A stretch of 53,160 nucleotides of DNA from NCBI GenBank assembly GCA_026702755.1, contig JAPPBX010000124.1:1-53160 (forward strand), given 5' to 3'. Origin of the DNA: Candidatus Poribacteria bacterium (GTDB taxonomy: Bacteria > Poribacteria > WGA-4E > WGA-3G). Shown piece by piece: positions 11,884 through 22,416 of this stretch. The first letter of the stretch is position 1. Each line of letters begins with the position of its first letter. Under the pieces are notes generated by a model. That model worked only from the letters and a program-made list of their open reading frames with translations, did no database searches and was not told the DNA's origin. The position numbers and the translations under genes were made by a program.

Positions 11884-12307
11884 TATGGACTCCTTTTGTT
11901 AGTGTTGGGATTCATCAATGGAGTAACCATAGCCGTCAATTTAAGAAAAAACTGTGTCATGGCATCGTAGGTTGGGTTGAACGGATTCCAGGAAAACCGT
12001 AAAATCATAGAAAAATGAACTTTTCTCCTGACACGCTACATCGACCAAAGACCGAGTGAAACCCAACGCTTTTGTTGTGAAGTGCCACAACTCTGACAGT
12101 ATGAAGTTGGGTTTCACTATGTTTTTGAGTGTATAGGGCAGCCTCTTGGATTTGAGGTGTGTTTGAAACACCGACATCCGCCCTTTCAATGCCGTTCAAC
12201 CCAACCTACGAAACTCGGTTCGGTTAGGAAACCGAACCTACCGGACTTGGTCCGGGACGGTTGTTTTTTCTAAAATTGACCCCTATGGAATCATTTTTTC
12301 ACGTTAC
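11884..12307. repeat. Intergenic element with a 19-bp perfect terminal inverted repeat
   Basis: CGTAGGTTGGGTTGAACGG at 11966-11984 is matched exactly in inverted orientation at 12192-12210, enclosing about 207 bp. Internal segments carry GTGAAACCCAACG, a motif seen in many dispersed bacterial repeats. Short open frames inside it have no support as genes. Beyond the right arm, a second inverted sequence, CGGTTCGGTTAGGAAACCGAACC, lies at about 12219-12241. Confidence 0.7.
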
Positions 12308-13549
12308 CTATTCTTGGTATGTTCCTACTAATGCTTCCTTCAAGACCTCCCGATAGAGACTTCCGCCTTTATAATAAAACGAGAAACCAGATTTTCCCAT
12401 AAAATCGTTAAGAGGTAGGCTCATAAGCATTTCTAAGTCTTTTGAAATCACTTGACAATCCACCGGTGATCCCTTATTCCATCCGCTAATGATCGCCCGT
12501 TCCAATGGTGAAATATCCTCAACACCTTTAGCCTCACGATGCTGTCTGAGATCACGGTTTAAAACCCAGACATTCACAAAATTAGCGTTCAGATACCTAA
12601 TTGTTTTCTTATCGGAGAGGACAACTGCCCTCAGAGATTTTCCACTGCCTCAGCACGACTCATCCATAAAGACACCCTCCGCTGACACGACGTGAATAGG
12701 ACGGTTAAGCACTCTTGCTTTTTCTAATGCCGCATCTAAAGGCACCCATTCAATTTCCTGTGCCTTGTAAAACCGTCTTGCGAGGGCGAGTTGTGCTTCC
12801 TCGACAGGAAGTTCTGACGAGAAAGTGATCTCCTTGGTGCTATCTTCCCCAGCGGTCATTTCAATGCGACAGACACCATTACCAGTAACGGTATACCCAT
12901 CCGGATGTTTTCTATTAACATCAAAGTTCAATGTGCTTTCTGGGACGGACATCTGAAAATAAATTAATTCTCGCGAGTGTCTGTCAAGTATGAGCCGTCC
13001 TGCAAATTGCGAGGGTGTAAAAAAGCCATCTTCCAAGACAAACTCGGCATGAATGCGGAACACAATTTCGGCGTAAGTCTCATTGTATGCTCGAAGCAAT
13101 GCCCACAACCCATCTGTGTCCCTGCCTATCTCGAAAGTTTTACTACCGATATTGATTTTTATAGTACCAGGACTGATGCGCATTTTAAATTGCGGCTTCT
13201 CAGCAAGTTGCTTGAGCAATTGAAGTGCATCTTCACGATCAATTTTCCAGGTCTCGCCGACGGAAACGGGTTTTCTGGGGAGAAAGCCCTGAAATACTGA
13301 CCTTGGATGATCTCTATGTCGTTCTACCTCTCTCAGGTTTGCGAGGGATTTCCATTTAAGATGGAAGTCGCCAGTAGAAGATGTAATTGGTGCGATAGAT
13401 GCTTGAACCGGAATCTGTGTTGGACCTTTTAACGCAAGGCGGATCTTTTTGGTACCACCCATATAAGAAGATATAGCACACCCAGAAAAGAACAGTGCCA
13501 AGCATAAACAGAGTGAAATACTTTTGTAAACAACCAACTTCTTGTGCAT
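12308..13549 (-). CDS. Selenocysteine-containing thioredoxin-like lipoprotein (UGA read through)
   Basis: The frame runs 413 codons if the UGA at 12650-12652 is read as Sec300. MHKKLVVYKSISLCLCLALFFSGC is a lipoprotein signal with Cys24. After a domain of unknown type, the region from about residue 272 is thioredoxin-like: a helix with DAALEKARVLNRP, then a strand, then DES-C299-U300-GSGKSLRAVVLSD, then TIRYLNANFVNVWVLN. The alignment to thioredoxin-like folds continues across the UGA with no frame change, so the stop is not a simple gene end. A SECIS-like hairpin follows the UGA (12617-12632). The ATG at 13549 has AAGGGG about 6 bases upstream. Without recoding, two partial products would be predicted. 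A cysteine homologue at this position would confirm the reading. It probably acts as a thiol/selenol redox protein outside the cytoplasm. Confidence 0.8.
12617..12652 (-). promoter_or_regulatory. Bacterial SECIS-like hairpin after the UGA codon
   Basis: In the mRNA the UGA (12650-12652) is followed by 17 bases and then a hairpin. The arms GAGGGC (12632-12627) and GUCCUC (12622-12617) pair fully, with one G-U, around the loop AGUU. A guanosine is among the first two loop bases and the UGA-to-loop distance is about 23 bases. Both features fit the published bacterial SECIS pattern. Confidence 0.65.
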
Positions 13550-13895
13550 TTTTGTCCCCTTCACAATTTATCTCATAAAGAAGTTGTATGGAAACCGAGC
13601 CAGAGAAAATGCAAAAGAGGTTTCGATTTACTCCTAAATCATAACCGAGACTCGGTCCCACGGCAAGTATTTATGAGATGGTGTATAAAAAATCAGAATT
13701 TTAATGAAAAGATTGGTGATTTTGTCTATTAGAGACACTTGAGATGAAAAAAGATAGTGGAAACTATACGAGGTAGAGAAAAGGGACTTTTTATTTGACA
13801 CAATCAACGGATTATGCCACAGTAACATACCTTGTATTATATTTTGACGTGCGCGCTGTCAGGCGCGCTTCTTCTAAGGAAAGGAGATTCTAACA
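13550..13895. other. Intergenic region between divergent genes
   Basis: This 346-base AT-rich gap separates the divergent selenoprotein and VOC genes. A GCGCGC-TGTCAG-GCGCGC inverted repeat lies at 13851-13868 in the leader of the VOC gene. I see no gene here. Confidence 0.5.
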
Positions 13896-22001: not shown

Positions 22002-22331
22002 CAATCACTGTTCCTTTAAATCTACATATTTAGGGACAAATCTATAGACTTGAAATTCCTGTTTTATCTACCCTCGCCTCCAATTTGAGGTCTTACAGAG
22101 TATCTATCAGGCGTTTAAGTTCTCCGCCGAACCGACGGGGATGTCTGTTAATGTTTGTTAAATTGACAGCAGCATGACATCACGGTTTTCCACGAAACCA
22201 CAACTTACACATAGTAACACTGCCTATCTATCAACGATAGTGTTCTTTTTTATGTCCATCGGATATTCGGACTGTAGTTCAGATGCTCAATATCTGCTTC
22301 ACGTGTCCGAACCGAGGGTCAAAATTTCAAA
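22002..22331. other. Intergenic region upstream of secD
   Basis: About 330 bases separate secD from the tRNA-Arg gene. I see no gene in it. A plus-strand open frame covering part of this gap and the tRNA (22174-22482) is the usual antisense artefact of a tRNA. Confidence 0.5.
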
Positions 22332-22404
22332 CGCGCCTGGGAGGAATCGAACCCCCGACACGAGGCTTAGGAAGCCCCTGCTCTATCCCCTGAGCTACAG
22401 GCGC
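22332..22404 (-). tRNA. tRNA-Arg (anticodon CCT)
   Basis: The minus strand folds as a 73-base cloverleaf: acceptor GCGCCTG with CAGGCGC, D arm GCTC/GAGC, anticodon loop TTCCTAA (anticodon CCT, codon AGG) and a T arm with GGTTCGATTC. The discriminator base is G. No CCA is encoded. Confidence 0.9.
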
Positions 22405-22416
22405 AAGTGTTATAGT

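Follow-up and report, generated by a model that had tools for sequence, protein, structure and literature searches.

The gene on the minus strand between positions 13549 and 12308 of the window (the whole 53,160-nt stretch of Candidatus Poribacteria DNA that was analyzed) encodes a selenoprotein, a conclusion that we regard as practically certain even without direct detection of selenium. With high confidence, we explain it as a poribacterial homolog of selenoprotein N (SELENON) in which a hairpin directs selenocysteine (Sec) insertion and which is proposed to act as a lipid-anchored reductase resolved by Cys299; its location, chemistry, and clients are inferred.

Direct reading of the minus strand gives 299 codons, TGA (12652-12650), 113 codons, and TAG in a single frame throughout, and the junction reads C299-UGA300-GSGKS. 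The earlier note on this DNA, made from its letters alone, had described two frames joined in-frame by one UGA, as is indeed the case. Its claim that the downstream part has no usable start is also essentially right, as a mechanical GTG start at 12577 falls inside the thioredoxin-like (Trx-like) fold. By itself, the UGA join is little proof, since the window contains 12 TGA-joined pairs of open reading frames in which each side has 60 or more codons. Among these, the upstream frame of the gene considered here (305 open codons) is by far the largest, and this gene alone has a strong hairpin following the UGA (−10.3 kcal/mol), the other pairs having −5.9 kcal/mol or weaker. Both the TGA and the terminal TAG are kept in separate assemblies, in orthologs L041 (93% identical) and L040 (76%), which excludes a sequencing error at 12650-12652, an outcome that according to the earlier note would have refuted its reading. 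In comparison with L040, dN/dS was 0.34 for the part before the UGA and 0.25 for the part after it; judged from these aligned sequences, the downstream frame is under purifying selection. The downstream value for the very close L041 (0.85) is uninformative, as it rests on only 2.5 synonymous changes. Just downstream of the gene, at window positions 12200-12260, lies a palindromic GGTTCGGTTTCCTAACCGAACC, possibly a repeat element or a terminator. The sole tRNA in the window is a tRNA-Arg (CCT) at 22331-22405 (-). Features of the gene are listed in Table 1.

Table 1. Positions of the gene and of its features in the window.
Feature	Position	Strand	Basis or remark
CDS, SELENON-like selenoprotein, 413 aa with Sec300	12308..13549	(-)	ATG 13549-13547, TAG 12310-12308
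Shine-Dalgarno-like AGGGGA, 5 nt before ATG	13555..13560	(-)	Read directly
Signal peptide with lipobox-like LFFSG|C24	13478..13549	(-)	Sequence; lipoprotein inferred
N-terminal beta-rich domain, residues 45-234, with SELENON-like FRIHAEF..FTPSQFAGRL block	12848..13417	(-)	Alignment and AlphaFold model
Trx-like domain, residues 271-408	12326..12739	(-)	AlphaFold model, Foldseek, profile match to CxxC proteins
Cys299, neighbor of Sec, invariant in 87/87; proposed resolving thiol	12653..12655	(-)	Alignment
UGA codon, Sec300	12650..12652	(-)	Alignment partners: attacking Cys of CxxC; Sec462 of human SELENON
Bacterial SECIS-like hairpin GAGGGC-AGUU-GUCCUC, GU in apical loop	12617..12632	(-)	First paired base 18 nt after UGA

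The genome that carries the window (5.84 Mb, 96% complete) contains 14 members of the family, including this gene, and TGA stands at the shared position in 13 of the 14. A scan of species genomes added 78 loci, all from Poribacteria, and the family is present in 65 of the 85 genomes of the phylum, with up to 17 matches per genome. Defined by the motif DE[SA]C-x-[GA][STN]GK-x-[LM]R, the family comprises 149 distinct poribacterial members. The codon at the Sec site is TGA in 146 of them, GGA in two, and GGC in one; no Cys codon was found at this site among the 149, Gly being the only substitute. The residue present in homologs at this codon, which the earlier note had proposed as a check, thus speaks for Sec. 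Within the phylum, the taxonomic families f1 and f2 and part of f3 have these genes, and f4 to f10 lack them; either repeated loss or acquisition within a single order of Poribacteria would fit this distribution. Outside the phylum, only weak matches to the Trx domain turned up in about 300 genomes and in 132 genomes of one further phylum, and no family member was found in the viral contigs searched. Six of the matches outside Poribacteria were examined and rejected as ordinary CxxC Trx proteins.

Some members of one clade carry Gly (GGA/GGC) in place of Sec (loci L031:1170-2864 on contig C102 of the same genome, L061, L124, L127, and L129). Both Cys299 and the stem of the SECIS are retained in these members; L031 and L127 have lost the apical GU (AACU). 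The tree requires three separate Sec/Gly changes, as if Sec had been lost repeatedly to Gly. Another paralog of the same genome, L035:1441-3342 (-) on contig C122, is fused to a C-terminal AhpC/TSA domain with the active site WNSFC and a single Cys, a fusion suggesting chemistry with peroxides or disulfides. Paralogs also form tandem arrays in this genome (C17:132299-141000, C104:53500-58400, and C102:42100-49100; loci L033, L032, and L031); these have extra conserved C-terminal domains, and the one tested had no Pfam match.

Across the family, the hairpin has 6 bp, occupies positions +20 to +35 (counted from the U of the UGA), and is closed by the loop AGGU, AGUU, or GGUC (register variants). 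The mean folding energy of the +15..+42 segment is −9.0 kcal/mol versus −4.9 kcal/mol for synonymous-codon shuffles, and 137 of 137 sequences fold below the mean of their own shuffles. At the +23/+32 pair (n = 123), G-C was observed in 86 sequences, A-U in 11, and G-U in 13, with 13 unpaired in this register; the +24/+31 pair appears as G-U, G-C, A-U, or U-A and is unpaired in 6. Arg307, whose codon forms part of the stem, is encoded by AGG or AGA in 123/123 sequences versus 28% elsewhere in the same genes (p ~1e-66), and Leu313 by CTC in 118/123 versus 18% elsewhere. Codon choice is constrained by this hairpin.

Genes for Sec synthesis and insertion, which the earlier note had recommended looking for as selA, selB, selC, and selD, are all present in the same genome: selB, followed 122 nt past the end of its match by tRNA-Sec; selA (a 598-bit match); and selD at C96:159939-160862 (L126). 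The SelD protein is a selenoprotein candidate itself (KCAGU). Among the 65 genomes bearing the family, tRNA-Sec was above the cut-off in 58, and selA or selB sequence was found in five of the remaining seven. The two genomes without clear Sec machinery are 73% and 81% complete. An earlier study reported SelA and SelB in most sponge-symbiont bins and their absence from the majority of related reference genomes (PMC5649159); we infer that up to 17 family genes per genome would be a sufficient reason for Poribacteria to have Sec machinery. Together with the TGA-bearing homologs and the Trx-like fold, the sel genes support the earlier proposal of a probable selenoprotein. That proposal did not include the SECIS hairpin, the 14-member paralog set, or homology to eukaryotic SELENON.

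The AlphaFold model of the protein has a mean pLDDT of 87.6 and a pTM of 0.83. In Foldseek searches, the best PDB matches of its Trx-like domain were DsbH-type, AGR, and ERp18/19 proteins, so that the earlier suggestion of a Trx-like motif continuing past the UGA is borne out by the fold. No solved structural relative of the N-terminal beta domain was found. When the family is aligned to CxxC proteins of another phylum, Sec300 falls on the first Cys and the invariant Gly303 on the second, while Cys299 replaces Trp; by these positions, a vicinal C-U pair has taken the place of C-x-x-C in the active site. The Cys-Sec pair had been predicted in the earlier note, and the Cys is indeed found beside Sec in every one of the 87 aligned rows. 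A signal peptide and a lipobox-like site are present in both orthologs, L040 (LLLPG/C) and L041. Since a lipobox is visible in only 4 of 132 paralogs, the lipid anchor is a trait of the subgroup to which this gene belongs. We infer that the protein is probably a membrane lipoprotein.

The motif SCUGSG suggested SELENON as a relative. The search target was a 338-residue C-terminal sequence of human SELENON that was not retrieved from a database record. With a profile of the 14 paralogs, this sequence scored 214.8 bits (E 2e-65); the match consists of two collinear blocks and places Sec on Sec. None of 200 shuffled versions matched the profile, nor did the reversed SELENON sequence. The N-terminal (beta-domain) block alone scored 90 bits. 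The window protein alone matched with an E value of 3e-26 and 29% identity, and the nearest subfamily is 33-36% identical. In view of the origin of the SELENON sequence, it was tested for consistency: with Sec numbered 462, it ends at residue 590. It was also compared with published variants of SELENON, namely, the patient variants R291Q, R466Q/W, and Sec462R (PMC8967691) and R469Q, R262P, and R268C (PMC8639696). It agrees at R262, R268, R291, Sec462, R466, and R469, six positions only. At the positions of human R291, H293, G315, C461, G465, and R469, all 87 of 87 bacterial rows have the same residue, and at that of R466 they have an invariant Lys; residues mutated in SELENON myopathy are thus among those invariant in the bacterial family. 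Given the alignment to this sequence, we are very confident in inferring shared descent with SELENON over the core formed by the beta and Trx-like domains. No Pfam match to an EF-hand was found in 87 members, and there was one chance loop pattern. Calcium sensing of the endoplasmic reticulum (ER) type is therefore not expected, and we file the family as SELENON-like, not as strict SELENON.

The Sec coding signals, the homology, and, by alignment, the position of the active site are observed; the function is deduced from them. Most likely, the protein is a lipid-anchored periplasmic selenol reductase, with location, chemistry, and clients inferred. In our explanation, the adjacent hairpin directs SelB and tRNA-Sec to read the UGA as Sec, and the product is, by inference, exported and lipid-anchored. 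In the proposed mechanism, the Sec300 selenolate may then reduce disulfides, oxidized thiols, or peroxide, acting on periplasmic client proteins. Cys299 would resolve the Se-S intermediate, leaving a vicinal selenenylsulfide to be re-reduced by a periplasmic thiol donor. In human SELENON, Sec is the attacking residue, and mutants without the neighboring Cys serve to trap partners (PMC7474598), which by analogy supports the same roles for the two residues in the bacterial protein. In the absence of biochemistry, we lean toward this reductase mechanism with Cys299 as the resolving thiol, with moderate confidence.

Other readings of the UGA were weighed. If it were a real stop in a decaying or split gene, the downstream part being a remnant, the standard code would hold and the downstream GTG could be pointed to; such a gene would not, however, be expected to have TGA conserved in 146 of 149 members, a codon-constrained hairpin, and a downstream frame that is open and apparently under purifying selection, and we give this possibility almost no credence. 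Genome-wide reassignment of UGA (e.g., to Trp or Gly) could account for the Gly codons at the Sec site in one clade but not for the tRNA-Sec, selA, selB, and selD genes or the SECIS hairpin, and since 40 of the 149 members use TGA as their terminal stop, a genome-wide code change was rejected; it is as improbable as a real stop. Somewhat less remote, though still unlikely, is a selenium-responsive switch yielding the 413-aa reductase with selenium and a stable 299-aa lipoprotein with a role of its own without it. The UGA does follow a complete N-terminal domain, but termination after residue 299 cuts the Trx fold (residues 271 to 408), so the 299-aa product is probably unstable.

The remaining alternative accepts Sec and disputes the ancestry: the SCUG motif shared with SELENON would have arisen by convergence in an unrelated Trx-like selenoprotein family. 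In its favor, such folds are common, CxxC Trx proteins of another phylum give weak matches, and the SELENON sequence used was not retrieved from a database record. Yet the homology also runs, collinearly, through the N-terminal beta domain, which reaches its 90 bits alone, and R291, H293, and G315 are shared far from the Sec site. We consider convergence very unlikely and retain a SELENON-homologous selenoprotein as the preferred reading.

How this homology arose is less clear. It is possible, although we would not call it probable, that the SELENON redox core is a bacterial (poribacterial) selenoprotein or one transferred across domains, through sponge-symbiont exchange or earlier, that eukaryotes added the EF-hand, and that poribacterial expansion explains the kept Sec machinery. 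The tree has a single eukaryotic row on a long branch, so the direction of transfer is not settled. Were this origin true, SELENON would not be a eukaryotic invention. Loss of SELENON leads to muscle disease in humans, and the chemistry of this disease protein is incompletely known; no solved structure of it was found. The many natural EF-hand-free bacterial variants provide alignments, models, and expressible proteins for study of the CU active site. The family, whose hosts are sponge-associated Poribacteria, also extends the prokaryotic selenoproteome, and it opens the question of where SELENON came from to testing. Each gene of the family is expected to be split at the UGA by standard gene callers.

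The family is apparently uncatalogued among prokaryotic selenoproteins. Its core region had no match at the curated cut-offs of Pfam and NCBIfam, single-sequence and profile searches of PDB sequences revealed no relative, and it is listed neither in the 2026 inventory of 119 prokaryotic selenoprotein families nor in the deep-Sep paper. Literature searches for bacterial SELENON, Poribacteria selenoproteins, and the motif text found no report. Poribacterial SelN homologs may have been noted before, and we therefore claim no priority.

The known bacterial CU-motif selenoproteins HgcA, SaoL, SaoC, KCU-star, MbdU, and Csac_0668 (PMC13188914, Table 1) have the CU motif in common with the family; NCBIfam models of known CU selenoproteins matched none of 87 members. 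Periplasmic CxxC Trx-like proteins, by fold the group of DsbH, AGR2/AGR3, and ERp18/19, share the fold and the position of the attacking residue, whereas the family has an invariant Gly for the second Cys, a Cys before Sec, and an extra N-terminal beta domain. In thioredoxin reductase, the Cys-Sec pair sits at the flexible C-terminus. Its GCUG sequence resembles the family in being a vicinal Cys-Sec redox pair, a parallel drawn for SELENON (PMC12839072), but no sequence or fold relation is claimed. Algal SELENON is almost exclusively Sec-containing (PMC7539508), and so is the bacterial family. The bacterial proteins differ from SELENON in that their SECIS is of the bacterial type and lies within the coding sequence, the EF-hand is absent, a genome can contain as many as 17 matches, Lys stands for Arg466, and the window protein has a lipobox rather than a transmembrane anchor. 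SELENON is membrane-anchored and extracytoplasmic (PMC12839072, PMC7474598), a location only inferred for the window protein from its signal peptide and lipobox. The bacterial proteins resemble SELENON in the SCUGSG motif (PMC12839072), the vicinal Cys-Sec pair, and the collinear Trx-like and preceding beta domains.
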